Below, in pieces: positions 38,520 to 60,699 of a stretch of DNA of 64,000 nt. The first letter of the stretch is position 1; each line of letters opens with the position of its first letter. A program made the translations under genes and the position numbers. This stretch comes from Symbiodinium sp. CCMP2592. Its lineage: Eukaryota > Sar > Dinophyceae > Suessiales > Symbiodiniaceae. Under the pieces are notes generated by a model. That model was not told where the DNA came from, searched no databases, and saw only the letters and a list, made by a program, of their open reading frames with translations. The stretch lies in the NCBI GenBank assembly GCA_905221615.1, contig CAJNDT010000491.1, positions 706,569 to 770,568 on the forward strand. Direction: 5' to 3'.

Positions 38520-38755
38520 AGTTAGGTGGGGGCATGCCCCATGTTTATCTCCGTACCGCAAACGCCTGATGCGTTATTTCCCTAGGGTATACCCTATGAT
38601 TTCAACATTTCAATAAATTTTTGCACATTTTTGACATCATACCCTCGCACATTTCGCCATTAAAATTTCAGAAATTTATGATAAAAAATTCATAAAATTT
38701 TACAATAATTTTATCATAAATTTTACAATAATTTTATGATAAAATTTTTGTGATA
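38520..38755. repeat. Left terminal inverted repeat of the provirus
   Basis: Starts AGTTAGGTGGGGGCATGCCCC, which includes the 12-bp palindrome GGGGCATGCCCC, and continues with ...CCTAGGGTATACCCTATG... into an AT-rich inner half. It matches the reverse complement of 60464-60699 with about two mismatches. The AG...CT ends agree with polinton termini. Confidence 0.95.
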
Positions 38756-38758
38756 TTT

Positions 38759-38986
38759 CTATACTGCTTGTTTTTTGTTTTTAAAATAACTCTTCAAATC
38801 ATTTAGTGAATCTTGTATATTTTTAATATATTCATCATCTATAAATGTTGTGTTGGAATTCTTTTTCATTGTTATCAGTATATCTTTTTGTCTTTCTAAT
38901 ATTAAATATTTTTTCATTGTATATTCATCACACAAGTTATCTAGCTCTTTTTCAAATACCTCTTTATATTTGTCTTTATCCATCAT
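38759..38986 (-). CDS. Small charged protein (75 aa), provirus
   Basis: The frame starts MMDKDKYKEVFEKELDNLCD and is helical and lysine/glutamate-rich throughout. It is the gene nearest the left end, on the minus strand, 3 bp from the inverted repeat. Upstream is an AT-rich promoter-like block with (TA)n (38987-39040), similar to those of the right-hand genes. Unknown function. AT-rich codon use matches the viral backbone. Confidence 0.5.
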   Translation of the reverse strand: MMDKDKYKEVFEKELDNLCDEYTMKKYLILERQKDILITMKKNSNTTFIDDEYIKNIQDSLNDLKSYFKNKKQAV

Positions 38987-39040
38987 ATATATATATATAT
39001 ATAATACTATATATTTTTCTTTTTAAAACTTTTAAAACTT
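38987..39040 (-). promoter_or_regulatory. AT-rich promoter-like block, left early gene
   Basis: On the minus strand it reads AAAAGTTTTAAAAAG, then AAAAATATATAGTATTATAT with (TA)n up to the ATG. The AAAGAAAAA...TATAGTATTATATATA core matches the blocks before 54598 and 59836. Confidence 0.5.
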
Positions 39041-39089
39041 TTATATAATTTTATCTTCATTTCTTTAAATATGTGTAATTTCACATAAT

Positions 39090-39326
39090 TTATGAAATAT
39101 TATTTTCATACAATTCTATCAGTTCTTTTTGTAGTTCAATTTGTTTTTCCAAAAACTTCATTTCCTTATCTAAATGTTCTTGTTCTTCTTTTTCTATAAC
39201 ACACTTTTGTTTTATTTCTACAATTTTACTTTCTCTACTTTCTTTGATAATTTCTAATTTTTCCAATTCATGTTTTGCTTGCTTGTATAATATTTCAAAT
39301 AATTCATCTTGAACCGATTTTTTCAT
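39090..39326 (-). CDS. Small coiled-coil protein (78 aa), provirus
   Basis: The sequence is almost entirely heptad-like charged helix (HELEKLEIIKESRESKIVEI, EFLEKQIELQ-type pattern). It probably forms an extended coiled coil. It follows the same promoter-like block as the neighbouring minus-strand gene. No family is recognised. Confidence 0.5.
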   Translation of the reverse strand: MKKSVQDELFEILYKQAKHELEKLEIIKESRESKIVEIKQKCVIEKEEQEHLDKEMKFLEKQIELQKELIELYENNIS

Positions 39327-39385
39327 ATATATATATATATATATAATAATATATATTTTTCTTTTTAAAACTTTTAAAACTTTTG
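39327..39385 (-). promoter_or_regulatory. AT-rich promoter-like block, second left gene
   Basis: On the minus strand: AAAACTTTTAAAAGTTTTAA (in part), AAAAAGAAAAATATATATTA, then (TA)n to the start codon. Nearly identical to the block at 38987-39040, so the two genes share upstream signals. Confidence 0.5.
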
Positions 39386-39389
39386 TTTT

Positions 39390-39519
39390 TACAACATGTC
39401 ATGTGCAGTTCGGCATGTGCAATCTGCCATGAGTGGTTGTGCAGTGCTTCAACACGTTTTTTCATGAGACATTTTGTCACTCAAATTTTTAGAGTGTTTC
39501 AATTCGTAGAGCTGTCGCC
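39390..39519 (+). promoter_or_regulatory. Upstream region shared by host-like cargo genes
   Basis: CATGTGCAGTTCGGCATGTG then CAATCTGCCATGAGTG here resembles CATGTGCAATTCGGCATATG then CATTCTGACATGAGTG at 50218-50255. A GAGTGTTTCAATTCG word at 39491 recurs in part near 40420-40450. The shared 5' region suggests related capture events or a common promoter. Confidence 0.45.
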
Positions 39520-40197
39520 ATGGCAGACGCAATGTTCGCAGATGGTAAGTTCGACATCGTGGCTCGTTCTCCTACTGATTTCTTGTATCTCTTCAAAGCC
39601 CTTTCGTGGGACGATGTGTCAACCAAGACAGTAAAGGAGGTCTTACATCCATATGGCGACTTTGTCATTGTTGACATCAGCCTCGACGGTGTGATTGCTA
39701 CCTTTGCCACCATTCAAGGACTCGATGGCATCTTTGCTACAGAACTTGCGTTGACACGTGGCAATGGTTGTGAAATTCATTTCCGCTTGAAGCCTCAACC
39801 ACTTGACCCAAGTTACCGCATCATGTGCAAGATCGAATACTTCTTATCTGTGGATGGCACGTTGATCAAAACTCTCGATGTCGAATATTTGTTTCTGCAC
39901 GTGATGGGCGTCGATTTAGTTCTTAGTCCTTTCGAACGCCATGATGTTGCAGAGATTTCCGTTGACGGAACGCATCTTGATGATATCGACGTGAAGGCGC
40001 CTCTTGCTCCTCAGTTCGGATTGTCTCCAGGAAGCTACCATGTCCGCATCGTCTTGAACGTTCATCCTACTGATGATTTAAGACTATTTGAATTTGTTCG
40101 TGAACCTGCTGATGAAGAATTTGATTCAGATGGTCTCGACTCCGCAGATGATAGCACCGCTTATGCGAGCACTGAAGAGGATCAAGAAGAAGATTAA
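39520..40197 (+). CDS. Host-like cargo protein with acidic tail (225 aa)
   Basis: Intact frame, start MADAMFADGKFDIVARSPTD, with clearly GC-richer codons than the viral genes around it. The body alternates hydrophobic strands and looks globular. The last 35 residues are acidic (EEFDSDGLDSADDSTAY, EEDQEED). No known family. Base use and a distinct upstream region suggest acquisition from the host or another virus, later than the backbone. Confidence 0.55.
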   Translation: MADAMFADGKFDIVARSPTDFLYLFKALSWDDVSTKTVKEVLHPYGDFVIVDISLDGVIATFATIQGLDGIFATELALTRGNGCEIHFRLKPQPLDPSYRIMCKIEYFLSVDGTLIKTLDVEYLFLHVMGVDLVLSPFERHDVAEISVDGTHLDDIDVKAPLAPQFGLSPGSYHVRIVLNVHPTDDLRLFEFVREPADEEFDSDGLDSADDSTAYASTEEDQEED

Positions 40198-40739: not shown

Positions 40740-40803
40740 TAAAATTTTATATAAAATATACAGTAAGGTAAGCTCACATTCTGCCGAAGAGTTCAACAAT
40801 GTT

Positions 40804-41622
40804 ATGGGTATGCTATACTACAGCGACGAAGAAGACAGCAACGACGAAGACATCTACACTGGTGGACAGGAGATCTTGGATGATAAGGGCAATAAAGTTT
40901 TTTATCAAATAGGAGGGGGTAAAAGGGCACGTGCTTCTTCATCTAATGCTATGGGGTTTAAATGCACCAACAAATATACTTCTAAAAATCAACGTATCCG
41001 TTTTATCAATGAAGAAGCACGGAGCCTTGAAACACGGATCACTTCTTCGTCGGCGGTTTCAGCTGTTTTTACCGAACAAATAAAGCTTATTAAAGAAACC
41101 CTAGCTTGGGCAGAAACCGACCCGAAGAAGTGCATTACCACTATTTTATCGGTTGTTAATAGGAAGGTAAGGCTTAATTTAATTGAGGAACTAGCAAAAA
41201 GCAATAACGGGGAATTAAGGATTAAACAATTGGTTGATGTTTTGTTTCATTATGTAGATGATCAGTTGGGGGAGGTAGAGACTTTGGTTACTGCCCTTAA
41301 ATCTTATGCTTTACGTGCTATGGAAAAATTGGTCGTTAGTTTGTGGAGTTCTTCTAATGGTGATATTCAATGGCAAAAATTGTACGGGTCTTTAAGTAAA
41401 TGCCCTGTTCATGGCGATCGTCACCACGACGCGGAAAACCGCCACGACGACGACGATGACGACGACGATGACGATGACGACAGTGGCAAAAAAGATGACG
41501 ACGAAGAGATGCCGGATATCTCTTCCGTGTCTATATCTACGCCAAAAAACGAGGGCGTCCGCCAAAAATTACCACTTGATGAGGTGGGATGTTATAAAAA
41601 CATTTTTGAATATAGTAAATAA
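40804..41622 (+). CDS. Host-like cargo protein with poly-Asp run (272 aa)
   Basis: The start MGMLYYSDEEDSNDEDIYTG is acidic. Around residue 35 there is VFYQIGGGKRARAS. Residues 60-200 are helical (RIKQLVDVLFHYVDDQLGEV). Residues about 215-240 are a run of 12 aspartates encoded by GAC/GAT repeats. Open sequence in the same frame extends upstream to about 40714, so the start is uncertain and it could be the second exon of the ubiquitin-like gene. No family is recognised. Confidence 0.5.
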   Translation: MGMLYYSDEEDSNDEDIYTGGQEILDDKGNKVFYQIGGGKRARASSSNAMGFKCTNKYTSKNQRIRFINEEARSLETRITSSSAVSAVFTEQIKLIKETLAWAETDPKKCITTILSVVNRKVRLNLIEELAKSNNGELRIKQLVDVLFHYVDDQLGEVETLVTALKSYALRAMEKLVVSLWSSSNGDIQWQKLYGSLSKCPVHGDRHHDAENRHDDDDDDDDDDDDSGKKDDDEEMPDISSVSISTPKNEGVRQKLPLDEVGCYKNIFEYSK

Positions 41623-42065: not shown

Positions 42066-43304
42066 TTATTTTGAGTAAATATTTTGTCTATATATGTCTT
42101 TTAATTCTTTAAGATACATTTTTTTCATTTCTTTATCTCCTGCTGATTTTATCCAATTGTTATATGCACTTCGGTATTTTCTGTATGTAGCGTTAGTTAT
42201 TGTTTTTCTATTGTTTGCTTCTTCAAATATCTCGCGTATTTTTTGTATTCCTATTTTACTTGGTTTGATTAAAGTTGTTCCGGTTGTTTCTTCTTCTTGA
42301 CTGTCTTTTAATAAGGTTCCATCTTTTTTAATTTTTCTTGATCCTTTTCTTACTGGTTCCTTTTCTTTTTTTGGTCTCTCTTCTCGTGGTGCAATTCCGC
42401 TTGAACTTGATGAACCGCCTTGTTGAACATTAGGTCGTGGTGGTGCAGATGATGTTTTGGGTGCCGGTCTAGGTCTAGGTGTTTCTGTGGTTGTGGGTTG
42501 ACTTGATGATGCAACTGGTAATGGTTGTTGTGTTGCTCCCACGTTGGGTTGATGTGGCTCTAATACCGTCGTCGGGTCGTATGTTGTATATTGTCCGTCT
42601 CTTGCCGTTCCTGAAAAATCTAATAGAGGTCTAGGTTGTGGCAACATTCTGTTCATTGCTATTTGTGCCATTTCTTGCGAAAGTCCAGTAACAAGTGAAG
42701 AACCTAAATCCATGCCTGACATCATGTTACCTGCAACATTGCTCCCCACTCTTAAAGCTCCACTGCCTACACTTAAAGCTCCCCTTCCTAGACTTCTTAA
42801 TATTCCCGATCCTCCTTCTTCTTCTCTTTCTAATTGTTGTTGATGTGCTTGAGTAATTCCCTGTTGGTTGCTCTGTTGTGCTGTTGCTATGTTTCCTAAT
42901 GTTTGATTAATTTGTGCTAATTGTTGTTCTTGTGGTGTTCCGAATTCTTCAATTATAGACTCTATGTTACCTCCTATGTTAAATTGTTCTGGTTGTCTGG
43001 GTTGCTCTGGTTCCGGTCTGTCATTTTGTGTAAATAATGATCTATGAGTTAAATCATTATCGTCAGCGTATTGTCGTTGCATGAGATCCCTAGCTATTCG
43101 TTCGGCGATTTGTTTTTCTTGAATTTTCAATTTGTCTAAATGATCCTTGCCATCAAAACGAGTTCCTTTGTTGCTTTGTTTATAAAACACAGCATCTCTA
43201 TTCGGAAATGGTTTTAACGCTTCTTCATTGTCATTAACCAACTCCAAAATATCTTCGTATCTAGATCTTCTGTGAAATTGTATTCCAGCATTTTTAACTA
43301 CCAT
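42066..43304 (-). CDS. Hypothetical structural-type protein (412 aa), provirus
   Basis: Start MVVKNAGIQFHRRSRYEDIL. Residues 110-180 are Gln-rich. Residues about 190-240 are glycine-rich and weakly hydrophobic (SLGRGALSVGSGALRVGSNV), reminiscent of membrane-active capsid-associated proteins. A proline/serine-rich linker follows, then a basic C-terminal helix (AYNNWIKSAGDKEMKKMYLK). It lies in a minus-strand run with the penton gene, which suggests late/structural expression. No named family. Confidence 0.55.
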   Translation of the reverse strand: MVVKNAGIQFHRRSRYEDILELVNDNEEALKPFPNRDAVFYKQSNKGTRFDGKDHLDKLKIQEKQIAERIARDLMQRQYADDNDLTHRSLFTQNDRPEPEQPRQPEQFNIGGNIESIIEEFGTPQEQQLAQINQTLGNIATAQQSNQQGITQAHQQQLEREEEGGSGILRSLGRGALSVGSGALRVGSNVAGNMMSGMDLGSSLVTGLSQEMAQIAMNRMLPQPRPLLDFSGTARDGQYTTYDPTTVLEPHQPNVGATQQPLPVASSSQPTTTETPRPRPAPKTSSAPPRPNVQQGGSSSSSGIAPREERPKKEKEPVRKGSRKIKKDGTLLKDSQEEETTGTTLIKPSKIGIQKIREIFEEANNRKTITNATYRKYRSAYNNWIKSAGDKEMKKMYLKELKDIYRQNIYSK

Positions 43305-43322
43305 TCTTTTTTATATATTGTT

Positions 43323-43592
43323 TTAGAAAATTGATTCACTTAATTGGGTTAATGTATCATACCGTTTTCTAAGATGTTCTAGTGAAGTCTCGGGTATTCG
43401 TGGATTATGCATTTCCCCTTTCAATCTCGCCAATTCGCTTTCGTAATTTGCTTTCATTTGACCTTCTAATAATCTTCTTTTAAACGCCATGTTTTTTTCT
43501 TTCGCCTCTCTCGCTTCTAATTGTTTTTTCAAGTTCAATAGATAGTCTAGATTTTGTTGACGATATACCATATCTTCCGATGAATTTACCAC
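43323..43592 (-). CDS. Small coiled-coil protein (89 aa), provirus
   Basis: Helical, charged sequence (NLKKQLEAREAKEKNMAFKR). It starts upstream of and 18 bp from the 412-aa gene on the same strand, so the two may be co-transcribed. No family is recognised. Confidence 0.5.
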   Translation of the reverse strand: MVNSSEDMVYRQQNLDYLLNLKKQLEAREAKEKNMAFKRRLLEGQMKANYESELARLKGEMHNPRIPETSLEHLRKRYDTLTQLSESIF

Positions 43593-43674: not shown

Positions 43675-44247
43675 TTATTTAGATTTTTTACTTCTAGCCT
43701 GAAACATAGCTTTGCACATATTATCGGATTTTTCCTGTTTTCTTCTCATAATTTCGGCGTTCATTGATCTCATTTGCAATTGCAATAATTGCTGTTGTGT
43801 CAAATTTGCATAGGGATTTAGGGGTTGTTGTGGTTGTGGTTTAGGTGGTATAGGTGGTATTGTCTTTGATGCAGGCGGTTGTTTTTCTTGATATTGTGGT
43901 GGTTCTACAAAATTATTGTCTTCAGGTTCTGGTGCTAACGGTTCAACATTTATTTTAGTTTTTTTTCTAGGTGCATATTTTTTAACTGGTTTATCAATAA
44001 TATTACTCGGTTTCTTTTCACACACACTAGGGTGACTATATCGTAAAGTTTTTACAGACATAGGTTTTTTACAGTCTTTGCATTCAGTAGAATTTTTTAT
44101 AACTTCTGTAATTTTTACTCGTTTTTGTTCTTCTTCCACAGCTTCATTTTTTTCAACTTCTGTTTCTGGTGGTGCTTCTATTGCTTCGTTTTCAGGTTCA
44201 TCGTTAACTACAGCATTTTCTGAATTCTGTTCTATCATATATAACAT
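43675..44247 (-). CDS. Zinc-finger and proline-rich protein (190 aa), provirus
   Basis: Acidic N-terminus (PETEVEKNEAVEEEQKR). Then at about residues 55-76 CKDCKKPMSVKTLRYSHPSV followed by C, a C-x2-C...H...C finger of a kind recurring in algal large-DNA-virus and PLV proteins as I remember it. A basic stretch, a proline/glutamine-rich region (PPIPPKPQPQQPLNPYANL) and a C-terminal helix follow. It sits between the structural genes on the minus strand. Function unknown. Confidence 0.55.
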   Translation of the reverse strand: MLYMIEQNSENAVVNDEPENEAIEAPPETEVEKNEAVEEEQKRVKITEVIKNSTECKDCKKPMSVKTLRYSHPSVCEKKPSNIIDKPVKKYAPRKKTKINVEPLAPEPEDNNFVEPPQYQEKQPPASKTIPPIPPKPQPQQPLNPYANLTQQQLLQLQMRSMNAEIMRRKQEKSDNMCKAMFQARSKKSK

Positions 44248-44269: not shown

Positions 44270-45137
44270 TCACATTGCGTCTGTATTATGAAAGAGGAGG
44301 CTTAATGATAAATTAACACCATTAAAATTTATAAGGTTACCTACTTCATCAGTAATTCTAAATGTTAATTTTCTTATTGAACGACGCGAGACATTTACAT
44401 AATCATAATCCGTGACGCCATAAAGATCATTTATAATATTAGCGAATGAAGCATTTACAGGAATTTTTTTGACTATGGCATTTGAAAATGTTGATGGGCT
44501 GTGAAAATTATTATTTGATAATTCAGGACATGATATATAAATATCTTGATGTGCTAATAAATTTATAAATCCAGAAACCCATGGAACGGCAGAAGTTGAA
44601 AAATCTAGAGGTTGTGGTGTATTTAAAACACTGTTTATACTGTTTAAATTGTTTAGATCAACATTATTTGAAAAAGACCCTACGAAATTTGCAATCAAGT
44701 TATCAGGAAGAACAATAAAAATAATTTCTGAAAAGTTTGATGCGATTGTTATTTTGTTTGATGTTGTATTATATACAACCGTGTATGTATTCTGTCTGCC
44801 TGTAACATCAAAGAAAAAATTTATTTCTCTTTGTATTGTAGATGCCAATTCCGGCGGTGTGTAATTTCCTAGTGGTATTTCAATTCTTATATAAGTTGTT
44901 CCTGTTGGTGTTGCAGGTGCTAATACTCTGTGTTCAAAATATAAATTTCTATTATTTTCGTTTATAGAATACCATGTGTTAGGAATTGCTAACTCGTGAA
45001 CTTGCATAATAGTTCCGTCTGGAATTTCAAAAGGTTTCCCTTAATTCTATTTGAAAGTCGCTGATACTGCGACTGTTTGAAGTGCGATATTTTGAATTTA
45101 CATAAACTTTTTTATATGTTAATGGTCTGATACTCAT
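44270..45137 (-). pseudogene. Penton / minor capsid protein (frameshifted near the N-terminus)
   Basis: The main frame (from 45007) contains HELAIPNTWYSINENNRNLY, IRIEIPLGNYTPPELASTIQ and RKLTFRITDEVGNLINFNGV, the pattern of the single-jelly-roll penton of polintons, PLVs and virophages. The true N-terminus is upstream in another frame: ATG at 45137, reading MSIRPLTYKKVYVNSKYRTS then SISDFQIEL, typical of penton starts. The two frames meet near 45040 where one extra base breaks the gene. Full length would be about 288 residues. It is divergent from the lipase-MCP block. Either the copy is dead for penton or this is a sequencing error. Confidence 0.75.
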
Positions 45138-45188: not shown

Positions 45189-45795
45189 TGACAAAGATTG
45201 AAGGACAATTAAATAAGATGTTGGAACAATCTCAAATACTCAAGGTATCAAATATGCATATGATCGGGATAATAAAGTTTTTGTTAGAGGAAATAAAATG
45301 TATGTGGCTGGCACATCTTCTGCTAGGGACTGGCAACAAAATTTCACCAATCTAAAAACAGGTGGAATTAGAGATATGGATCGCTACAAAGAAGCAAAAA
45401 AAGTATTAATGGCCAATCTAAAAACAGGTGGAATTAGAGATATGGATCGCTACAAAGAAGCAAAAAAAGTATTAATGGAAAATCCACAGGTGGATACTTT
45501 ATTAGGGCACAGTATGGGAGGCAGTGTTGTTTTAGAATTAAACAAAGAATTCAAGGATAAAAATTATAAAACGAGAACCTATAATGCTCCCGTGGTAAGT
45601 TTCTTTTCACCTATGATTGGCTTAGATAGACCGACGGAACAGCACAAGAGATTTAGAATGACAGGTGACCCCGTGAGTGCTTTTGATAACGCGGCTATAA
45701 GCTATGATGCTAAAACTTTCAATCCTATAGCAAGTCATGATATTGACCAGTTAGAAGGCATTGATGAAAGAATAAAAATATTAGGTATGTATTAA
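45189..45795 (+). pseudogene. Lipase-like alpha/beta hydrolase (frameshifted, with internal duplication)
   Basis: The frame from 45298 gives AGTSSARDWQQNF and then LLGHSMGGSVVLELN, the nucleophile elbow G-H-S-M-G-G of class 3 lipases. Asp in TGDPVSAFD and His in ASHDID may complete the triad. The coding sense extends upstream in that frame (YAYDRDNKVFVRG) and, after a one-base shift near 45244, to ATG 45189. A 66-bp exact-looking tandem duplication (45347-45412, 45413-45478) repeats NLKTGGIRDMDRYKEAKKVL, keeping the frame. Lipases of this type are known in PLVs and virophages, perhaps for membrane passage. The gene is just upstream of MCP. Confidence 0.7.
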
Positions 45796-45817: not shown

Positions 45818-46060
45818 ATGCTTAACAAGGTCAGAAAATCAAAAGAACAAACAAGAGTAGGAAAAATCCCCGAGAACATTCAGTTTAAAAATAAAATTAC
45901 AAAAAGTATAAATAATTCATCTTATGAAATGATCAGGGGAATTGTAGAAACTGATGTTTCAGCAGTAGCGCAACCACAACTAGAAAAACAAATTTCTAAA
46001 AATATGAATAATTTAAATTCACATAAAAAAAATAATATTAATAATAAAAAATCTAAATAA
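45818..46060 (+). CDS. Small basic protein (80 aa), provirus
   Basis: Start MLNKVRKSKEQTRVGKIPEN. Lysine/asparagine-rich, ending in a low-complexity NSHKKNNINNKKSK tail. It lies between the lipase and MCP genes with 10-22 bp spacing, suggesting a common late transcript. No family. Confidence 0.5.
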   Translation: MLNKVRKSKEQTRVGKIPENIQFKNKITKSINNSSYEMIRGIVETDVSAVAQPQLEKQISKNMNNLNSHKKNNINNKKSK

Positions 46061-46070: not shown

Positions 46071-47537
46071 ATGGATTTAGTTATAGCAGAAACTCAGGAT
46101 AATATGATAAATTCCTTACAGTTCGGACTTCCAGAAAGCGCCGCGTATATTACAGATCGTAAACAGGTTCACTTTCCTAGTGTATCCGGAAATGTAATTA
46201 GTAGTAACAATGGTAATAAATATATTAAATTTGTTATCACAGGAGAAGACAACAATTATATTGATATGTCCAGTATTTGTTTATTTTTTGATGTTGTTAA
46301 CACATCACAGACAGCAGGACAATATTTAAGACCTCTAGGAGAAAGTCATACATTTTTTACCCGTTATAGATGCAACGCTGCAGGACAACAAATTAACGAC
46401 ATTGATAATTACAATTTAGTATGTGAAGAAATGAAATCTTTTAAATCTGAAGAAGTAAGAAATTTAGACGATATTCAGGAAGGTTGTTTAACACGATATG
46501 ACAGCAAAATTAATAGACTTTTTGCAACTTCTATTGAAGGTCATGACGCCACTGCAAATACTGGAACAAATATACGAGGAATTGTTTTACCTAAACTTAC
46601 GCGGGCAAATACTACAGGTATTGCACAAGGAAAATTCGTTAGGATGGGTCATAAGCCTTGTTGTGGGTTCGTTCAATCTGGGTATTATCCTCCTATTCGT
46701 TATTGTCCGTTGGAATTTATTTTTGAAATTTGTTCAGATCCACAGGAACCGGTAATTAATCCAGGAACACCAGTTGCTGCAAATCAAGCAGCAGACGATG
46801 TTAACGGTTTATACTTTACCACAAGAAACACCACTACATCATGGGCAATTCAGAACTGCATCCTAAGATGTGAATTAATAACAGTAGACAATTCCGTCAA
46901 TAACAACGTGGTTTCGCATTTATTGAAAGGAGGTCGTCTTAGAATGGTTTATCCCGCCTATCACAGTTTTTCACAAACTTTCTCCACGGGAAATACAGAA
47001 ATCAATATGAATATTGTTAAATCTTCAACTAGATTGTCGCAGATGTTCTTTACACTTAGTAATCCAGCCATACAAAATAGCAATACACCAGGGAATTTTT
47101 CACGAAAAAAATGGAATTGGTTTTATCATCCTATGGCAGTTACCGTTGACAATTTACAAGGTGTTATTGATAGTGATAGGCAGCTTTCATATTATGTTCA
47201 GATCGCTAATAAAAAGTTCCCAGAACAAGCAATTGAAAGTTTATCCGAAGCAATGTATTTCCTACGCCGTGCTGTTAATGTTATGTCTCCGTTTTATGAT
47301 GGTTTTTCAATTGACATTTATAGATACGCTAACGACAAGTTTATAGGAGGAATAAATTTTGATAAACAACCTGATATGAATTTTACCGGTTCTAACACTA
47401 AAATGGGCTCATTATTGACTTTTAAATTGAAAGGGGCTAACCAAACTTTCGCGTTAGGAATTGAACAGGTATATGTTACATTAGTGAGTGAACATGTTTT
47501 TGAACTTTCTGAAAGCGCCTCCACTGTTTTAGACTAA
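46071..47537 (+). CDS. Major capsid protein, double jelly-roll type
   Basis: Intact 488-residue frame of PLV-type length. Signs: N-terminal PSVSGNVISSNNGNKYIKFV as the first strand region of an upstream jelly roll, a central second-barrel region (NCILRCELITVDNSVNNNVV), and the conserved C-terminal ending GIEQVYVTLVSEHVFELSES, matching the typical MCP tail of PLVs and virophages. It would form the pseudo-hexameric capsomers of an icosahedral shell with the penton encoded at 44270-45137. The ATG at 46071 follows an AT-rich TATATA block and the small basic gene by 10 bp. AT-rich codons match the backbone. Confidence 0.85.
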   Translation: MDLVIAETQDNMINSLQFGLPESAAYITDRKQVHFPSVSGNVISSNNGNKYIKFVITGEDNNYIDMSSICLFFDVVNTSQTAGQYLRPLGESHTFFTRYRCNAAGQQINDIDNYNLVCEEMKSFKSEEVRNLDDIQEGCLTRYDSKINRLFATSIEGHDATANTGTNIRGIVLPKLTRANTTGIAQGKFVRMGHKPCCGFVQSGYYPPIRYCPLEFIFEICSDPQEPVINPGTPVAANQAADDVNGLYFTTRNTTTSWAIQNCILRCELITVDNSVNNNVVSHLLKGGRLRMVYPAYHSFSQTFSTGNTEINMNIVKSSTRLSQMFFTLSNPAIQNSNTPGNFSRKKWNWFYHPMAVTVDNLQGVIDSDRQLSYYVQIANKKFPEQAIESLSEAMYFLRRAVNVMSPFYDGFSIDIYRYANDKFIGGINFDKQPDMNFTGSNTKMGSLLTFKLKGANQTFALGIEQVYVTLVSEHVFELSESASTVLD

Positions 47538-51173: not shown

Positions 51174-51944
51174 TTATTGAATTTCTGAAGATATAGTCAT
51201 AGCGTTTTCAAAGCGAATAAAGAACATACGATTTATATCTTTTGCATTTGTATTTATATATAAGAATGAATAGGGAGCATCGTTTATAGCTATTCTATAC
51301 ATTTCATATAATTCTTCTTTATTTACCAATGCGGAATTTTCTTCTAGAAATGAATTTACTTCATTCATATTTTTCAATCGGAATATAAATAAAGCCGAAG
51401 CGTTTAACCTTACAATAGGAGCTAGGACATTATATTTCTGAGTAGATAACAATACAGATATAGCATTATGGCGACCACGGGTAAATAATGAATGTAATAT
51501 ATTTGAATACCTTACGAATTTTGGGTCGTCCGCGAAATCATCAATGACGATTAATATTGAATGTAAATTCTTTTGTTTATTCTTTTTTTGGTAATCTATA
51601 ACTTTATGTTGAGTTTTTATAATTTGATTTAATGCTTCAGGGTTATATTCTTCAAAATATGTTTTTTCTTTTTCGGTATCTACATTCATATGATCAGATA
51701 TATGTTTTTTTACACTATTCCATGTGTCATCAACATGAACACTAGGACTGAATATAAATATTCTTTCAAAGGAACCTTTATAAATATTCAATATGAGATT
51801 TTGGATCAATACAGTTTTACCACCAGTTGATGAAGCAACTAATATACCACGGAATGGAAGCGACGGCATCATATCATATTTTGAGTGTTTGTATGTATAT
51901 TCTGGAATATCTATTGGTTTGACGATGGGAATGGTATTATTCAT
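51174..51944 (-). CDS. FtsK/HerA-type DNA-packaging ATPase (A32-like)
   Basis: The ATG at 51944 (MNNTIPIVKPIDIPEYTYKH) is preferred to the upstream one at 51977, giving about 256 residues. FRGILVASSTGGKTVLIQNL near residue 35 is the Walker A region, SILIVIDDFADD near 130 the Walker B, and LLSTQKYN near 165 the sensor-type motif. This size and order are those of the genome-packaging ATPase of polintons, PLVs, virophages and nucleocytoplasmic large DNA viruses. It would pump DNA into the capsid made by MCP and penton. The frame is intact. It is the only minus-strand gene in this part and faces the replication module across 52000-52250. Confidence 0.85.
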   Translation of the reverse strand: MNNTIPIVKPIDIPEYTYKHSKYDMMPSLPFRGILVASSTGGKTVLIQNLILNIYKGSFERIFIFSPSVHVDDTWNSVKKHISDHMNVDTEKEKTYFEEYNPEALNQIIKTQHKVIDYQKKNKQKNLHSILIVIDDFADDPKFVRYSNILHSLFTRGRHNAISVLLSTQKYNVLAPIVRLNASALFIFRLKNMNEVNSFLEENSALVNKEELYEMYRIAINDAPYSFLYINTNAKDINRMFFIRFENAMTISSEIQ

Positions 51945-51977
51945 TATTTTTACATAGATTTTTTTTATAAATATCAT

Positions 51978-52254: not shown

Positions 52255-52625
52255 ATGGAAAATAATACTTTGGAAAAAATGTTAAACGAATTGACGATGG
52301 ACGATATTAAGGAACAACTGGCACTATATCAAAAACTTTATTATCATAAAAAAAGTCAGAACAAACATACTACGAAGTTAAAAAAGAAAGTGCTAGACAA
52401 TACCATAAACGAAAAGCTTTAGATAAAATATTAAATGATAAAAATATTGATATAATGGATAAATTAGAACTCACCGAAACTAAAGCAGGTATCAAGGTTA
52501 AAAAAAATCAAAAATACACACTTGACAATGTTGTTATGTTAAAGCCTTCAAAAAAGAAAACAGAAAAGAAAAAAGACACAGAAACTACAGAAACCTCAAC
52601 TGAAAATGAGAATAAAAATGCATAA
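52255..52625 (+). pseudogene. Small lysine-rich protein (about 122 aa), frameshifted
   Basis: The frame from ATG 52255 reads MENNTLEKMLNELTMDDIKE and then LALYQKLYYHKK. At the A-run 52348-52354 the sense passes to the next frame: SEQTYYEVKKESARQYHKRK and DKLELTETKAGIKVKKNQKY, ending at TAA 52623-52625. One missing A explains the break. The continuous product is helical and basic. It is too split to appear as one frame. Function unknown. Confidence 0.5.
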
Positions 52626-52642: not shown

Positions 52643-52732
52643 TTCCAATTTTGAGCTGGATGAGGTTCCAATTTTGAGCTGGATGAGGTTCCAATTTTGA
52701 GCTGGATGAGGTTCCAATTTTGAGCTGGAACC
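52643..52732. repeat. 23-bp tandem repeat, about four copies
   Basis: Units TTCCAATTTTGAGCTGGATG plus AGG are virtually identical. Related GGAACC/TTCCAG words continue to about 52805. It lies in the gap between two genes. Confidence 0.9.
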
Positions 52733-53001: not shown

Positions 53002-53511
53002 ATGACAGTTCTCTGTCCAGGATGTGCTGACCAAAAGGTCACAGGAAAACTATTATGTAAACAGGTTTTACAAGAAGATGCATTTAATTTAATAAATTCC
53101 TTTAATAGGTGCGAAAGGTGCGACGACATAGTTAATACCAGATTGTTCATAGAGACATATAACTCTGAAACATGGCTTATACTTCACCATGCGCGAGTTT
53201 TACAAAGCATAAAGACAGAAGTTAATGACAAGAATATAAACAAACATATTAATAAACATTCAATGTGTTATTTAAGATATGTCGGACATTGTTTAAGTTA
53301 TGGACATACACCGTCAGATAGACAAACATGTGAGAGTGAGAGAGATATATTAAACATGATACAGAAGAGGAAAAATAGAAAAAAAGGAGATGAAGATATA
53401 AATCTAAAAAAATTATCATTTGATTTTTTTAGAAACATGATTCTAAAAAAGTTTGATCATAAAAATGCCCAGTTTATGATAAGAATGCTTTATAAAATAC
53501 TATACTATTGA
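53002..53511 (+). CDS. Zinc-ribbon protein, family member 1 (169 aa)
   Basis: CPGC at residues 5-8 and CERC near 37-40 form a C-x2-C...C-x2-C pair with about 30 residues between, followed by a helical basic body (KRKNRKKGDEDINLKK). Two other genes (54598, 59836) share this layout, though this one is distant in sequence. It is preceded by the conserved promoter block. Possibly a regulator or replication helper; function unknown. Confidence 0.55.
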   Translation: MTVLCPGCADQKVTGKLLCKQVLQEDAFNLINSFNRCERCDDIVNTRLFIETYNSETWLILHHARVLQSIKTEVNDKNINKHINKHSMCYLRYVGHCLSYGHTPSDRQTCESERDILNMIQKRKNRKKGDEDINLKKLSFDFFRNMILKKFDHKNAQFMIRMLYKILYY

Positions 53512-53533: not shown

Positions 53534-54471
53534 ATGAGCGACGGCGAGGATAATAAAAAGAATTCAATAATAAATGATATCTATTTTGATAGAGCAGGCT
53601 TTGGAAGCAAAAAGCAAACATTAAAATATGCAAGAGAAAAAGATAAAACCATTACAATGGCTGATGTTGATAAATTTTTAGGGAAAATGTGGAACAGAAG
53701 AAGCAGATAAGAGGCAAAAATTCATTTATAGCCCCGGAACCATTTTATGAATTTCAATTTGATTTATTTTTTATAACTGACCTTGAAAATCAAAAATTTA
53801 AGGTCGGAGCAATAATGATAGATGTTTTTAGTCGGTTTATGGTGGTAGTCCCGATTAAAAGCAAAGACGAAGGCAATGTAGCATCGGCAATGATTGAAGG
53901 ATTTAATAAAATGGGAGGAAAACCAAAAATATTATATACCGACGACGAGGGAGCATTACAAAATGCAAGCATTCAAGAATATTTAAACAAGGAAGGAATA
54001 CAACACCACAGAACGAGAGCACAGAACGAGAGCACATGCAAATTTTAGCGAGAGAGCAATTAGAACTTTTAAGGACATGCTTTACAAAAGAGTTGAAGCG
54101 GATGAAAAAAAGGTAAAACGAATATTCAATGGACAGACTATATTTTTGAAGTTTTATTAACATATAATAATAAAATGGAACATTCAACTATTAAAATGAC
54201 ACCGAAGGAAGCAATGAAGGAGAAGAACGAACTTAAGGCAAAACAGAACATGACAAACCAAGCAACCAGAACTAGAAAATATCCTAATATATCTGTAGGT
54301 GACAAGGTGAGAATTTACAGAAAAAAGAAACCGGGAGAAAAGGAAAGAGTCGGAATATGGGGAAAAGAAACACACGAAATAGAAAAAATAGAACAGAGAA
54401 ATAACCAAAGCAATTTTTATGTGAAAGGGAGCAACCGACCATATTTACGATTTGAACTTTTAAAACTTTAA
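53534..54471 (+). pseudogene. Retroviral-type (rve) integrase, broken in three places
   Basis: The N-terminal part begins at ATG 53534 (MSDGEDNKKNSIINDIYFDR) and includes ADVDKFLGK. A missing A at 53684-53687 shifts to the frame with NSFIAPEPFYEFQFDLFFIT (first catalytic Asp) and ILYTDDEGALQNAS (second). A 13-bp tandem duplication (54007-54019, 54020-54032) shifts the frame again before FSERAIRTFKDML (candidate Glu). A third shift in the A-run 54105-54111 leads to IQWTDYIFEVLLTYNNK and a C-terminal SH3/chromo-like domain (ISVGDKVRIYRKKK). This is the polinton integrase type that uses the inverted repeats and makes short target duplications. It is inactive unless the indels are errors. Confidence 0.85.
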
Positions 54472-54597: not shown

Positions 54598-55164
54598 ATG
54601 TTCAAGTTAACATATTGCTGGAAGTGTGAGGAAATCAAAGAACAACATAAAACATTAAATAAAATGTTACCAGATGATTTTTGTAACATGTTAGGGGATT
54701 ATGAGAAGTGTAGTAATTGCCACGGTTGTATCTACTTTAACGACCATTACAAAGAACCATATGAGGAAAATAAAGACCACTTTAAGGCAAGAATAACAAT
54801 TCATTTTTTATTGATGAAAGTATTTGATAATAACACCATGAAGCCAAAGCTAACAATGCACGATTACAAATATATAATACATAACTCACAACATCCATTG
54901 AAAAAACAGATGTTGAATTTTTTAGTTTCATGTCGTAGAGGGCGTGTTAAAAGTTCAACACAGTTCCTAAATAACTTACTACATTGGAATTTTCTATATA
55001 GAGATTTTGATAAACTATCTGAAATTTCAACAGACGAAAACAGAGAGATTGTAAAAGAAATAATTTTATCAATGTTTGAATTCTTTAGGACATGTTGTTC
55101 TAAAAAGAAGTATAGCGTAAGTGAAAAAGAAATGAGGGACTATATAGAGGAGCGAATGAAATAA
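54598..55164 (+). CDS. Zinc-ribbon protein, family member 2 (188 aa)
   Basis: Start MFKLTYCWKCEEIKEQHKTL. CWKC (7-10) and CSNC (near 40) form a zinc-ribbon-like pair; the remainder is helical and ends SEKEMRDYIEERMK. The first 30 residues and the promoter are almost identical to the 59836 gene, showing duplication; the middle has diverged. Placed between integrase and polymerase. Function unknown. Confidence 0.6.
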   Translation: MFKLTYCWKCEEIKEQHKTLNKMLPDDFCNMLGDYEKCSNCHGCIYFNDHYKEPYEENKDHFKARITIHFLLMKVFDNNTMKPKLTMHDYKYIIHNSQHPLKKQMLNFLVSCRRGRVKSSTQFLNNLLHWNFLYRDFDKLSEISTDENREIVKEIILSMFEFFRTCCSKKKYSVSEKEMRDYIEERMK

Positions 55165-55318: not shown

Positions 55319-58300
55319 ATGTCCAAGTTTATAGTGAGCAATGTTAGAAAACTTAATAAACTGAAGCAGGATAGAATAAATGCTTCGGTTAAAATCACAC
55401 AAGCAACCATAAAAAGGATAAATAAAGTCATATCACTTTACAAGGACAGGATAATGTTAAATGTAGCAACTGCTGAAAATTTCATTAAAAACCTTACCAG
55501 TCCTAATAAGAGAACAGCAGAAAAAGCAAGGGACAAATACAACAAAATGATAGAAGACCTAAATAAGAAACCACCACCACCAGAACAAAAACGACTTATG
55601 GATACATATTTAGTAAACTTTCAACTTTATGTTATTAAAGACCCTGAAAAAACAAAAATGAAACCAGCATTTAAACGATATGGGAAAAGTTTTTATATTG
55701 AAAAATTTGATATAAGACAAGCAACTGTAAAGGCGAAAAGCTTTAATATTGAATGGATAAAGAAGATTATTTTTAGAAATAATTATGAAGATAAAAACGA
55801 TTTAGTATTTTATGATTTAGGAGATAAGAATTATAAGTTGGTAAGTCTTGAATATAAGAAAATCCTAGATATACTAAGATCAGATAAAGATTTTAATAAT
55901 TTTATAACAAGTTTTCGTATAAGTTATGATGACCTCCCTGACGCTATCAAAATTCAACAAGTGGAAAAAATAAGCAAAAGTGGTGAGAAATTTGACATAA
56001 TGAAAGAAAACTTAACTGACGGAATACTGCACTCATCAATGTATCATCGTTACATATATACACACATTAACAGCAATTTGACAAACCTAAAACAAGCAAT
56101 AGAAAATAGCACATATGTAGATAATCAGTGTTGGTTTAATGCACTGATAGACTTTTACCACGATACCCTGATGGACAGCAACAAGACAAAACAGTTAACA
56201 CGAGAAAAAATTATAGAGATTACAGGGAAGGAGGATTTTTATAGCAAAGGTGCTAGCATTGAAGACATGGATAAGGTATTTAAGGAGTTTAAAATACCAG
56301 CTAGAATTTTTGATAGCTTTAATAATCTGATATATAAACACGAACCGGAACACAACAAAAGAAGAATTAAGCCGTTTTATGCCATTGTCAAAAACAGCCA
56401 CATTTACACAATGAATAACGACTTAAAAAGCATTGAACAGAAGCAAAATTTAGAAGAACAAAAATACATAGTTAAAGCATCTACCGAATACCATTTGAAC
56501 GAAAAGGAAGAACCGCCTAAATATAAAATGTTCAATGATACATATGAACTTTTAAAAATGGTAAGTAAAGAAAAAGAGCCAATAACATATCATTTAGTAC
56601 CTGAACATAACAGTTTGACCAGAATATTTTTTGAACTCTTGAACTCAAGATATGAACCGCAAATAAAATTTCAAGCGGGAATTATTACAGAAGTGAAGCT
56701 TAAACTTAAGAAAACCACATTTATAATTAAAACTCAAAGTTTGATTAAGGGGTCGTCAGATGGATGCATAGCAGTAGACGACGAAAAAACATATAACAAC
56801 ATGAACGAAGCAATGTTTAATTTCAATAAAGCTTTGTTTAATCCATTACATAAGTCATTTTATAATCAAATTGACCTGAAGATTTACAAAGAAGCAAAAA
56901 CCATACCACCAACAGGACTTTTAAAACCTAGGGAATACATACCGAAAGAAGTTACAGAAATAGACATAACGAAAGCATATACAAGTAGATTAATTAACAT
57001 TGATAAAATACCAGTATTCAATCAATTTGACATCTGGAGACCTTACACTAATGACATGGATTATAATAAATTGTCAGATTATGTGTTATACTTTGTTGAA
57101 GATTGTAAAAGAACTAGGCCTAATTTTACAGTGTTCCTCAACTTAATTAATCAAAAATACAACTTAATATATGGAAAATATTTGAAACAGATTGATGCAA
57201 ACGATCTAAAAATATTGTATTATAAAAAGCCTTCCTTCATACACGATGTTAACTATAACGAGTTAGTTAAGGAATTATGGAAAAAATCCATGATGAACTG
57301 GACAAACTGATTAAAAAACTTATTGTAAATGTTAATATCGGGCTTTTAGAAAAAACCGAGAACACCTCGCAAAAAAGCACAGTTTTCAAAAACTTGAAGG
57401 AGGCATCAAATTTTCAATTAAAACATGGAGGCAAAATACATAAGATAGAAGAAGTAGAATGTCACCACGATATAATGTTTAGGGGAGATAAAGATGACGA
57501 AAACATATATTCAAAAATGTATGATGAACCAAGTGGAACGGATTATTATTTAGTGAATTTGTCGGACAGTGCAACATTAAATAATGGATTTATTTATATT
57601 AAAGAGCTGTTACTTCAAGACCATAATTTTAAAATGCTTCAAGATTATAATAAACTAGTGAAAAATTTTGTATCAGTTATTAGTGTTAAAACAGACGCAT
57701 TTGTAATAAGAACACAGGATATTGACAAAGCACGAGAGATTTTAGAAATGAAAACCGGCATAGGAGAATGGAGAGCAAACAAGAAAGGAGAAGAAATAAT
57801 TTTATCACCAGAGGAATACAAGAAAAAACCAAATGAATTAAATAAAATACCTATTTACAAAAATGTAGCAATAGAAATCAAAGACGAGTATGACACCAAA
57901 AATATAATAGCAAATGTTATAAGTGCTAAACATGTTATGATCAGGGCAAAATATGCAGGTTCAGGAAAGAGTTATATATGTGAAAGAATGGCAGATATGG
58001 GTATGAATGTTTTATTTGTATGTCCTACTAATAAACTTGTTCAAAAATACGGAACAGACGCAATCACAGTAAATAAATTCTTTTCTATAGCTGTGGGAGA
58101 CGAGAAGCTAGAAAAATTTGATTATTCAGGTTATGATGTCATAGTGTTTGACGAGATTTATTTTAACGGTTTAAGGGTGTTAAACAGAATTAGGGAGTTT
58201 GTTGAACAAAATCAAGATAAAATAATAGTAGCTACCGGCGACGGTAAGCAATTAAAACCAGTATCAGAACTAACCAATTTACAGGAGCACGAAGAATATG

Positions 58301-59220
58301 CCGATAATTGTGTGGATAAAATTTTCAAATATAATATTTATCTGAAAGTCTGTAAACGGTTAAGGAAAGAGGAAGACAGGAAAAAACTAGAAAATATTTA
58401 TATTGACATTTTTGAAAATAATATTAAAGCTAGAGATTTAGTGAAAAAATATTTTAAATACACATCTGACATAAATTTAAACAGTAATAATGTAGCATAT
58501 TTAAATGATACATGTAGGGAAGTTGCAAATGAAATTAGAAAAATGCAAAATAGAAAAGGTGAATATGAAGTGGGAGAAATAATGATATGCAGAGAGTATT
58601 TAAAATCAAAAACTTATAAATTTCAAGTTAATTTTAAATACAAGATTTTAAACATAGTTGAAAATGTGGTGGTCTTAGAAGACGAGCACACTAAAGCAAT
58701 TCAACAGTTACCGGTGGATATGTTGAGGAAGCATTTTATATTCAATTATTGTTTTACCTGCCACAGTGTCCAAGGTTCAAGCATTGAGGGAGGTATAACA
58801 ATATTTGATTATAACCACTGTTTAGTTAATAAAAACTGGTTATGGACGGCGATTACAAGAGCGACAGATTTAAATAATGTAACATTCTTCAAATATAATA
58901 ATGAACATGACAATGAATTTAATAAAAGATGTATATACAATTATTTAGGTAGAAAGGTTGAAGGATATAAAGAACAAGATAGAAAAGCAAAGAGAAAAAT
59001 AGATCATAAGAACTATATTACACCTGAATGGTTATTAGAAAGGTTGAATGGGAGTTGTGAAAAATGTAGTGTAGAATTTTATGTTAAATCAATAGGTGGA
59101 AATATAAGGACGAATTTAACAGCACAAAGAAAATTTAACGATCAGACACATACAATAAGCAATTGCATAGCATATTGCAAGAGGTGCAACTGCAACGCCA
59201 GTGATAAAGAAAAGTTTTAA
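55319..59220 (+). CDS. DNA polymerase B - SF1 helicase fusion with protease-like and HNH-like parts (one frame break)
   Basis: Two overlapping frames (55319-57310 and 57277-59220) form one product of about 1,300 residues. Part 1: residues about 267-360 show DNQCWFNAL and NSHIYTM, resembling Cys and His boxes of OTU/papain-like proteases (inference). Near 546 EIDITKAYTS is the polymerase motif A. Part 2: KKLIVNVNIG at its start is motif B and SVKTDAFVIR (about 135) motif C, so the break falls inside the palm. An SF1 helicase follows: AKYAGSGKSY (Walker A), DVIVFDE, VATGDGKQLKP, HSVQGSSIEGG and WTAITRATD. The tail CEKCSVEF...CKRCNCN resembles an HNH-type zinc region. The break is in an A6 run (57281-57286): one lost A or a -1 frameshift. 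Confidence 0.75.
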
Positions 59221-59272
59221 AAAGTTTAAAAAAAATATAGTTTTAAAAAAACTTTTATATAATATTGTATAT

Positions 59273-59578
59273 ATGCCAGTTGGTAAAAGCAAGGTTGAAG
59301 CAGTAGCAGAAGAGACACAAAATGAACAATTTGAAGAATTTAGCGAAAAAATTTACAATATGATTTTAGAACTAACTCGTGATATGGAAACGGTTTTAGA
59401 AAAACTTGAAGTATTAACTGAAAAGCCTAAATATAAATCAAATACAAATCCTGAAGCATCATACACAAACAAAAGAAACGCCTATATTAAGAAATTAAAT
59501 GACGGAGCAATTTTACAACCTAAACCGGAAACTATGGAATATTATAAGGTTACAAAGGAAGGAGATAAGTATGTTTAA
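59273..59578 (+). CDS. Small acidic protein (about 101 aa), provirus
   Basis: The ATG at 59273 (MPVGKSKVEAVAEETQNEQF) is the first likely start; open sequence before it is AT-rich promoter. Helical and charged, with a lysine-rich C-terminal half. It follows the polymerase-helicase by 52 bp. Unknown function. Confidence 0.45.
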   Translation: MPVGKSKVEAVAEETQNEQFEEFSEKIYNMILELTRDMETVLEKLEVLTEKPKYKSNTNPEASYTNKRNAYIKKLNDGAILQPKPETMEYYKVTKEGDKYV

Positions 59579-59607
59579 CAAAAAATTGTAAACATATTTT
59601 TAAAAAT

Positions 59608-59780
59608 TTGAAAAAATATATAGAATTTTTTATTATAAAATTTTTTATTATAAAAAAAATATATAGAAATTTTATTATAAAAAAATATATAGAAATTTTT
59701 ATTATAAAATTTTTTATTATAAAAAAAATATATAGAAATTTTTATTATAAAAAAATATATAGAAATTTTTATTATAAATT
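59608..59780. repeat. AT-rich tandem repeat upstream of the last gene
   Basis: Units AAAAATATATAGAAATTTTT plus ATTATA recur about six times. Similar single or double copies lie at 52190, 52850-52950, 54475-54540 and 55228. The frame across it is an artefact. Confidence 0.8.
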
Positions 59781-59835
59781 TTTTTCTTAAAAAAATGTTC
59801 TAAAGAAAAAAAATCTATAGTATTATATATACAGG
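59780..59835 (+). promoter_or_regulatory. Conserved upstream block, copy 4
   Basis: TTTTTTTCTTAAAAAAATGT then TCTAAAGAAAAAAAATCTAT and AGTATTATATATACAGG, almost identical to copy 2. Confidence 0.65.
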
Positions 59836-60432
59836 ATGTTCAAGTTAACATATTGCTGGAAGTGTGAGGAAATCAAAGAACAACATAAAACATTAAATAA
59901 GATATTACCTGAAAATATTTGTAACATGTTAGGGGATTATGAAACATGTAAAACATGTTCAAGAATGATATACTTAAATAAAGAATTTGAATTACATAAA
60001 TCAAAACATGAAAACAAAGACAATAAATATTTTAAACATGAAGTTATATTTAACAGAATTACAAATAAAAAACCTATTAACGAATTACTATATACAGTTC
60101 AAGATTTTAAAATTATAATAAAACGATCAGATATTAACAAAAGTAAAAAACAAAATATGTTAGATTTTGTAAGACACTATGACCCTAATAATTTAAATGA
60201 AAATTATCAAAGTAATATTGAAGTAATACAATGCATATCAAATCAAATACAATATCCTAATATATTTAAAAACAGCATAGAAGCAGTAGATCGTATGTAT
60301 GGAGATGTAACAGGAAATGTAATAAAAGAATTAATTATACTTTTATGGCAGGATATTATATCAATCATTCCAATGAAATATAATTTAACAGATGACGAAA
60401 TACGAGACTATGTAGAATTTGTAATAACATAA
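59836..60432 (+). CDS. Zinc-ribbon protein, family member 3 (198 aa)
   Basis: Start MFKLTYCWKCEEIKEQHKTL, identical to member 2 over the first 20 residues. CWKC and CKTC make the zinc-ribbon pair; the C-terminus DDEIRDYVEFVIT resembles the SEKEMRDYIEERMK end of member 2. The central part has diverged strongly. It is the last gene before the right inverted repeat. Duplication included the promoter. Confidence 0.6.
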   Translation: MFKLTYCWKCEEIKEQHKTLNKILPENICNMLGDYETCKTCSRMIYLNKEFELHKSKHENKDNKYFKHEVIFNRITNKKPINELLYTVQDFKIIIKRSDINKSKKQNMLDFVRHYDPNNLNENYQSNIEVIQCISNQIQYPNIFKNSIEAVDRMYGDVTGNVIKELIILLWQDIISIIPMKYNLTDDEIRDYVEFVIT

Positions 60433-60463
60433 AAAAATATCACAAACAATTATCACCAAAAAT

Positions 60464-60699
60464 TATCACAAAAATTTTATCATAAATTTATTGTAAAATT
60501 TATGATAAAATTATTGTAAAATTTTATGATTTTTTTATCATAAATTTCTGAAATTTTAATGGCGAAATGTGCGAGGGTATGATGTCAAAAATGTGCAAAA
60601 ATTTATTGAAATGTTGAAATCATAGGGTATACCCTAGGGAAATAACGCATCAGGCGTTTGCGGTACGGAGATAAACATGGGGCATGCCCCCACCTAACT
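60464..60699. repeat. Right terminal inverted repeat of the provirus
   Basis: Reverse complement of 38520-38755 with about two mismatches, ending GGGGCATGCCCCCACCTAAC plus T. The inner edge is AT-rich with repeated TTATCAC words. Confidence 0.95.

Follow-up and report, generated by a model that had tools for sequence, protein, structure and literature searches.

A probable endogenous Polinton-like virus, apparently partly broken, inserted in a Ty1/copia reverse-transcriptase gene of Symbiodinium sp. CCMP2592

Polinton-like viruses (PLVs) endogenous to dinoflagellates are a kind of element that is already known. In Polarella, 2,535 major capsid proteins (MCPs) were counted and a 'Dino' MCP cluster was defined (Bellas 2023, PMC10120064), PLVs of Oxyrrhis were described with a Symbiodinium kawagutii polinton as reference (Haro 2025, PMC12721341), and a cryptophyte paper of 2025 covers Symbiodinium PLVs, S74 fibres, rve integrases and target duplications of typically 6 bp, with a PLV size range of 14–40 kb (PMC12220804). 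The record further includes six Symbiodinium MCPs (Bellas and Sommaruga 2021), Maverick elements in the Breviolum genome paper and PLV contigs in Karenia metagenomes. Here we analysed a stretch of 64,000 nucleotides (contig CAJNDT010000491.1, positions 706,569 to 770,568, forward strand; hereafter the window), in which positions 38520-60699 form an A/T-rich island of 22,180 bp. We regard it as highly probable that this island is an endogenous PLV lying in a copia gene and partly broken, apparently equipped with A/T-rich promoters of its own, and that its intact relatives would be virophage-like. The initial annotation had likewise proposed an integrated Polinton-like element, and the packaging ATPase, integrase, helicase, penton candidate, terminal repeats and target duplication support that assignment; its remark that dinoflagellate PLVs are little described is out of date (PMC10120064, PMC12721341, PMC12220804). 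New are the copia insertion, whose empty site can still be read, the particular complement of genes and the promoter lead.

The PLVs of Symbiodinium and Polarella resemble the element by description rather than by sequence comparison: they are integrated, generally 15–30 kb long and commonly flanked by inverted repeats, with a GC content sometimes unlike that of the host and retrotransposons often nearby (PMC10120064, PMC12220804). The element also shares with published PLV fibres the S74 domain, whereas the HNH-helicase fusion of 12 Symbiodinium PLVs carries its HNH part at the N terminus and the element carries an HNH-like part at the C terminus (PMC12220804). The PLV of Oxyrrhis marina (OmPLV) is, like the element, an endogenous dinoflagellate PLV of low GC with an A32 ATPase, repeats, a linked superfamily 1 (SF1) helicase and polymerase, fragmented genes and copia nearby (PMC12721341). 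In OmPLV, however, the helicase precedes a full protein-primed family B DNA polymerase (pPolB), a tyrosine recombinase is present and there is no target duplication (PMC12721341), whereas in the element a polymerase-like part precedes the helicase, the integrase is of rve type and 5 bp are duplicated. The opposite gene order, the rve integrase and the AATAC duplication thus place the element outside the OmPLV lineage. The order polymerase-like part, SF1 helicase, nuclease is also the one described for Tlr1; Tlr1 ends in GIY-YIG, whereas the element ends in an HNH-like part and holds its polymerase-like part and helicase in two overlapping open reading frames (ORFs). The Tlr1 helicase was reportedly presented by Krupovic in 2016 as fused to a degenerate family B polymerase (PolB). 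Degenerate polymerases of the Tlr1 kind are described in Haro 2025 (PMC12721341) and in Bellas and Sommaruga 2021.

Bounds and insertion site of the element

The island is bounded by a sharp composition change in the GC profile and by the following features.

38515..38519: target-site duplication AATAC, left copy, directly outside the left repeat
38520..38758, plus strand: left terminal inverted repeat, 239 nt, 3 mismatches against the right arm
60461..60699, minus strand: right terminal inverted repeat, pairing with the left arm
60700..60704: target-site duplication AATAC, right copy, directly outside the right repeat
38220..38519, minus strand: downstream part of the interrupted copia reverse-transcriptase frame (RVT_2, host retrotransposon)
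60705..60998, minus strand: upstream part of the same frame, meeting the other half at AATAC

The GC content of the island is 0.309, compared with 0.535 in the rest of the window, which bears out the 22.2-kb AT-rich island first annotated (31% against 53.5% GC). The two repeat arms are 99% identical, with mismatches at repeat positions 170, 213 and 237 and an identical outer 169 nt; the inverted repeats of 236 bp given initially hold with 2 mismatches, the full arm being 239 nt with 3, and the 5-bp target duplication was found as AATAC at both ends. When the outer 20 nt of the repeat were searched with up to 3 mismatches, they occurred twice in the window, at the two island ends, and two occurrences were seen in 0 of 100 shuffles (mean 0.00). 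A length of 22,180 bp with 239-nt terminal repeats falls within the 14–40 kb of PLVs, and AATAC on both sides corresponds to the 5–6 bp duplication that accompanies an rve integrase.

The empty site was reconstructed by deleting the island and one AATAC copy, joining the flanks and translating the frames. The joined flanks gave a minus-strand frame of 198 aa, with 98 residues contributed by one flank and 100 by the other. Other joined frames measured 67 and 69 aa on the minus strand and 58, 165 and 65 aa on the plus strand, so length alone is no argument. The 198-aa frame matched RVT_2, the Ty1/copia reverse transcriptase, with an E-value of 7.7e-10 over profile positions 13-137, spanning the junction; taken singly, the left-flank part matched at E 1.9e-4 and the right-flank part gave no match. 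Because the joined flanks form one RVT_2 frame across the junction, the element lies inside a copia polymerase gene, and this argues strongly for a genuine insertion into a Ty1/copia retrotransposon rather than a misassembly.

Gene set of the element

The principal genes and candidates are listed below; cut-offs are those of Pfam.

44270..45007, minus strand: 245-aa candidate for the penton (minor capsid) protein; passes the curated DUF5901 cut-off with E 4.6e-7
45298..45795, plus strand: lipase-like fragment; Lipase_3 E 1.9e-4, just below cut-off
46071..47537, plus strand: MCP candidate, 488 aa; frame open, TCTA 19 nt before the ATG
47586..49832, plus strand: fibre-like protein, 748 aa; C-terminal Peptidase_S74 E 1.1e-9, TCTA 16 nt before the ATG
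51174..51977, minus strand: A32/HerA-type DNA-packaging ATPase, 267 aa; Pox_A32 E 7e-13, above cut-off
53534..54471, plus strand: rve (DDE) integrase gene, pieces in two alternating frames; TCTA 16 nt before the first ATG
55319..57310, plus strand: ORF of 663 aa, putative N-terminal half of a PolB-like/helicase protein; no family match
57277..59220, plus strand: SF1 helicase ORF, 647 aa; AAA_30 E 3e-7, above cut-off

The Pox_A32 match provides the A32/FtsK-like packaging ATPase expected of a PLV, and the best sequence match of this protein in the Protein Data Bank (PDB) was the genome packaging NTPase B204 (E 0.011). The penton candidate matched DUF5901 best over residues 3-95; this family is of unknown function, and we infer the penton role. 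The fibre-like protein also matched a PHROG tail fibre (E 5e-12). We regard the 488-aa ORF as a candidate for the double jelly-roll MCP of a PLV because of its length, because it sits among the capsid-side genes ahead of the fibre, and because it shows a motif shape presumably typical of PLV capsids. Its best PDB sequence match, a spike protein (E 0.0077), was set aside as not meaningful, tblastn against phage records gave no match, and a single-sequence structure model was too low in confidence to be used (mean predicted local distance difference test score, pLDDT, 32). Of the full morphogenesis set announced initially, the ATPase was confirmed, the penton became a DUF5901 candidate, and the MCP is an open frame that matched no profile in Pfam, PHROGs or NCBIfam.

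Among the 23 element ORFs or pieces scanned, the only protease family above its Pfam cut-off was S74, the fibre's self-cleaving chaperone. Below threshold there were faint matches of g15 to DUF4344 'putative metallopeptidase' (E 0.035) and of the lipase to Hydrolase_4 (E 0.069). The absence of an adenain-like protease, reported initially, held for Pfam in the same 23 sequences, and it does not set the element apart because OmPLV also has no recognisable protease (PMC12721341).

On the replication side, the integrase core piece (53689-54048) matched rve at E 1e-10 and the helicase ORF, besides AAA_30, matched UvrD_C_2 below cut-off (E 1.4e-4). The integrase and the helicase part named in the initial annotation were recovered, whereas its polymerase half found no match below E 0.08, and neither replication ORF matched canonical protein-primed PolB (PF03175) in Pfam with E up to 1. 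The 663-aa ORF contains DITKAYTS at 56963, which we take to be PolB motif A-like, and the helicase ORF contains, upstream of a Walker A-like AGSGKS, the string VKTDAF, presumably PolB motif C-like without the first aspartate. These PolB-like strings suggest a degenerate polymerase of the Tlr1 kind. The helicase C terminus is HNH-like, matching an HNH-like ORF of a phage contig by tblastn (E 7e-4) and, weakly, Pfam HNH (E 0.074). An OTU-protease-like stretch suspected in the 663-aa ORF from a sequence pattern (strings at 56123 and 56393) was dropped: Pfam gave only DUF7003 (E 0.16), and the model was all-helical with mean pLDDT 57, with 0 of 115 Foldseek matches to the PDB at E ≤0.001 (best 1.1).

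Relatives were sought by scanning viral contigs (IMG/VR) with the MCP, ATPase, helicase and penton candidate, which yielded no confirmed relative; neither an ATPase pattern nor the outermost 20 nt of the repeat retrieved anything in contig scans. An HNH pattern hit 76 loci, at one of which tblastn of 22 ORFs (E 1e-3) recovered the helicase C terminus as the sole match. With E up to 0.05 against all 92 loci, 6 loci carried a match to the helicase C terminus in the same register, and the C-terminal piece of the integrase had a weak match at one other locus. The matching 186-aa ORF of one locus looks like the HNH protein of a phage contig. An MCP-motif pattern hit 16 loci, 2 of them viral and 14 from genomes. 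Compared with the 22 ORFs by tblastn, these 16 revealed no MCP relative, and the ORFs of 5 of them (one in part) looked unrelated.

Promoter-like motifs before the genes

The motifs described below concern both the genes already listed and the remaining ORFs and repeats of the element.

38759..38986, minus strand: g1, 75 aa; preceded by a AAAGAAAAA box, no family above cut-off
39090..39326, minus strand: g2, 78 aa; AAAGAAAAA box in front, no family above cut-off
39520..40197, plus strand: g3, 225 aa; GC 0.46, no family
40804..41622, plus strand: g4, 272 aa; GC 0.41, no family above cut-off
42066..43304, minus strand: g5, 412 aa; unknown, TCTA 23 nt before the ATG
43323..43571, minus strand: g6, 82 aa; unknown
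43675..44247, minus strand: g7, 190 aa; unknown
45818..46060, plus strand: g10, 80 aa; TCTA 19 nt before the ATG
50525..50968, plus strand: g13, 147 aa; low complexity, in a GC-richer stretch
52255..52454 (end approximate), plus strand: g14b, small ORF, apparently frame-broken; AAAGAAAAA box and TCTA
52643..52729, plus strand: 23-bp tandem repeat, 3.8 exact copies, between the ATPase and g15
53002..53511, plus strand: g15, 169 aa; start rich in cysteine, preceded by a AAAGAAAAA box and TCTA
54598..55164, plus strand: g18, 188 aa; paralogue of g22 with the same promoter cassette
59273..59578, plus strand: g21, 101 aa; unknown
59836..60432, plus strand: g22, 198 aa; paralogue of g18

A direct repeat of 187 nt (86%; 54526-54712 and 59764-59950) covers the promoter and start of g18 and g22. 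By eye, the cysteine-rich start of g15 is similar to the g18 and g22 starts. Five small ORFs had no Pfam family above cut-off. Two GC-richer stretches lie within the A/T-rich element (39400-41700 and 50200-51100) and contain the orphan ORFs g3, g4 and g13; no convincing repeats marking a nested insertion were found there (39.4-41.7 and 50.2-51.1 kb), and these stretches are perhaps captured host DNA.

In a set of 21 ORF starts, to which the g14b and integrase starts were added after frames and boxes had been inspected, TCTA in A/T-rich DNA stands 15–23 nt before 9 (g5, g10, MCP, fibre, g14b, g15, integrase, g18 and g22); by subtraction of the two late additions the count is 7 of 19. TCTA ranked first among the 41 4-mers found before at least 4 of the 21 starts (uncorrected p 0.006), and in a scan of all 256 4-mers over 9-nt positions, made by an analyst who already knew the mavirus motif, TCTA at -23..-12 came out on top (family-wise p 0.004, 1000 simulations; 0.010 without the paralogous g22). 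ATAT at -14..-3 was second and also enriched (14 of 21, family-wise 0.011), and AGAAAA was first among 6-mers (8 of 21). At the other ATGs of the element TCTA occurred in 27 of 795 cases, compared with 9 of the 21 starts (Fisher 5e-8), and at other A/T-rich ATGs in 3 of 129 (Fisher 6e-7). The mimivirid early motif AAAAATTGA was absent from the element, and its shorter form AAAATTGA occurred once.

A second box, AAAGAAAAA, lies within 60 nt of 7 of the 21 starts. It precedes 7 of 9 ORFs at the ends and on the replication side and 0 of 9 capsid-side ORFs (Fisher 0.002), in a grouping made after the boxes had been seen and with g3, g4 and g13 left out. A loose fuzzy scan for long boxes also picked up A/T repeats elsewhere in the window and is not relied on here.

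In published work, TCTA with A/T on both sides is the late motif of CroV (PMC5294985) and of ChlorV (PMC13196603), and it is the motif of mavirus and of type 4 endogenous mavirus-like elements (EMALEs) (PMC8547959). In Cafeteria, type 4, which bears the CroV late motif, was the only one of eight EMALE types to respond to CroV (PMC10945749). The element resembles mavirus and type 4 EMALEs in having TCTA flanked by A/T before genes, an rve integrase and an endogenous state in a protist (PMC8547959, PMC10945749). It differs in having no match to a virophage protease and in a second box before non-capsid ORFs only; as regards virophage features of the mavirus kind, general libraries gave neither a match for the MCP candidate nor a protease above cut-off. 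In the literature on PLV promoters, as far as it was covered, we found no report of TCTA promoters in a dinoflagellate PLV, and in PMC12945077 TCTA belongs to a primer table. The motif suggests a virophage-like dependence on a mimivirid helper with TCTA late promoters, an inference from a 4-nt motif in a single element.

Weighing the proposed reading

Several points weigh against the reading set out at the start. No relative of any element gene emerged from the IMG/VR, GTDB-contig and phage scans. The MCP candidate has no family in the general libraries Pfam, PHROGs and NCBIfam, the 663-aa ORF gave nothing better than E 0.08 in the same libraries and further searches, and the MCP and polymerase remain candidates identified by where they lie, how long they are and what shape their motifs have. 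Nor need the polymerase-like and helicase ORFs belong together; they may be two separate genes. As for the promoters, TCTA comprises only 4 nt; 12 of the 21 starts lack it at that distance, including those of the penton candidate, ATPase, polymerase-like ORF and lipase; both the scan width of 9 nt and the window of -23..-12 were fixed once the data had been inspected; and without the five-gene plus-strand cassette family TCTA is left before 5 of 16 genes (own p 0.007, family-wise 0.49).

It is a serious possibility, although not the one we favour, that neither the TCTA nor the AAAGAAAAA boxes are promoters and that both arose from the duplication of A/T-rich spacers and from base composition. 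Several plus-strand genes share one repeated cassette, without which the family-wise significance of TCTA is lost. Moreover, the element contains 15 AAAGAAAAA words, of which 8 fall outside the seven upstream boxes, and in a leave-one-out profile g15 scored weakly (p 0.07), while g6 and g10, outside the family, scored p <0.02. However, TCTA also precedes g5, g10, the MCP candidate, the fibre and the integrase, all of which lie outside the cassette set, and it is rare at the other A/T-rich ATGs.

A complete functional provirus, whose frame breaks would be assembly errors in A/T runs, is conceivable but rather unlikely. Such runs are error-prone in long reads, the repeats differ at merely 3 of 239 positions, and six capsid-side frames are open (the MCP candidate of 488 aa, the fibre of 748 aa, g5, g7, the penton candidate and the ATPase). 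Yet these same frames, about 7 kb in all, are similarly A/T-rich (GC 0.28–0.37) and stay open, whereas the integrase alone has three frame changes in about 0.9 kb (between 53534 and 54471), one of them near a 13-bp tandem duplication, and the lipase-like fragment holds an exact 66-bp tandem duplication. Frame breaks were judged by eye on three-frame translations, and the element sequence was neither mended nor joined. The integrase is frame-broken. The polymerase-helicase probably is as well: its two ORFs share 57277-57310 but read it in different frames, and we take them for one split gene because one ORF holds the motif A-like string and the other the motif C-like one. The lipase, whose start seems to be in another frame than its body, and the small gene at 52255, which seems to break within 200 nt, are apparently broken. 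Decay is the simplest reading of these frames, assembly error being possible, and the 'complete-looking' provirus of the initial annotation is not supported.

A classical Maverick/Polinton, that is, a self-synthesising transposon, would fit the rve integrase core (E 1e-10, in a broken gene), the inverted repeats and the 5-bp target duplication; it is improbable given that PF03175 was not matched at E up to 1, that Pfam found no adenain-like protease in the 23 ORFs or pieces scanned and that the polymerase-like part stands before an SF1 helicase. A misassembled or contaminating viral contig, by which the initial annotation thought its own claim might fall and to which the sharp composition change could be ascribed, is scarcely credible, since the flanks, read without recourse to sequencing reads, are halves of one copia frame meeting exactly at the duplicated AATAC and both termini are matching inverted repeats.

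The surroundings indicate a eukaryotic host, because the copia frame is accompanied in the window by a reverse transcriptase of long interspersed nuclear element (LINE) type, RVT_1 (E 2e-8 and 2e-21), in two overlapping plus-strand frames at 32180-34202. A dinoflagellate host for the element is plausible; a spliced-leader pattern had 0 matches in the window. Elsewhere in the window, the minus strand at 8429-13337 has by eye the look of a DIRS-type retroelement (RNase H-like, tyrosine-recombinase-like and 2OG-oxygenase-like stretches), its frames having no Pfam match at E 0.01. A 407-aa minus-strand frame (60911-62134) resembles by eye the frame at 9830-10470; Pfam gave nothing for it at E 0.01, and a 374-aa part gave a weak Tet_JBP match below cut-off (E 0.009). 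A 270-aa plus-strand frame (36978-37790), on the strand opposite to the interrupted copia frame, looks by eye like copia RNase H and had no meaningful Pfam match.

In the reading that we prefer, an endogenous PLV would have become part of the nuclear DNA of a eukaryote, probably an alga. Presumably its rve-type integrase placed the linear genome, inverted repeats included, in the reverse-transcriptase gene of a Ty1/copia element already resident there and duplicated 5 bp in doing so; the resulting structure is directly visible. The copy would have retained open frames for the fibre, the ATPase and the capsid and penton candidates, whereas the integrase, probably the polymerase-helicase and apparently the lipase and one small gene would have broken since insertion. 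Because the integrase and probably the replication genes are broken, the copy is probably non-autonomous. Its genes seem to be fired from the element's own A/T-rich promoters, and intact relatives would most likely be virophage-like, silent until a giant virus supplies late transcription, a life cycle suggested by the resemblance of TCTA, capsid-side genes included, to the CroV/mavirus late promoter. A bolder proposal, which we consider doubtful, is that PLVs of this type are virophages in practice: the CroV/mavirus-type late promoter before capsid, fibre and integrase, together with the second, non-capsid-only box, would then form a two-class promoter system tuned to a mimivirid giant virus of the element's host, and would predict that helper.

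The locus offers a clean, fully bounded PLV inside a retrotransposon gene whose empty site can be read, with a broken integrase and probably broken replication genes beside open capsid-side frames in one copy. The promoter-like sequences may give a clue to the giant virus able to activate the element. If the promoter reading is true, the class of giant virus that rouses integrated PLVs in the host could be told from sequence alone, and the idea could be examined across the PLV MCP loci of dinoflagellate genomes, thousands of which are on record.

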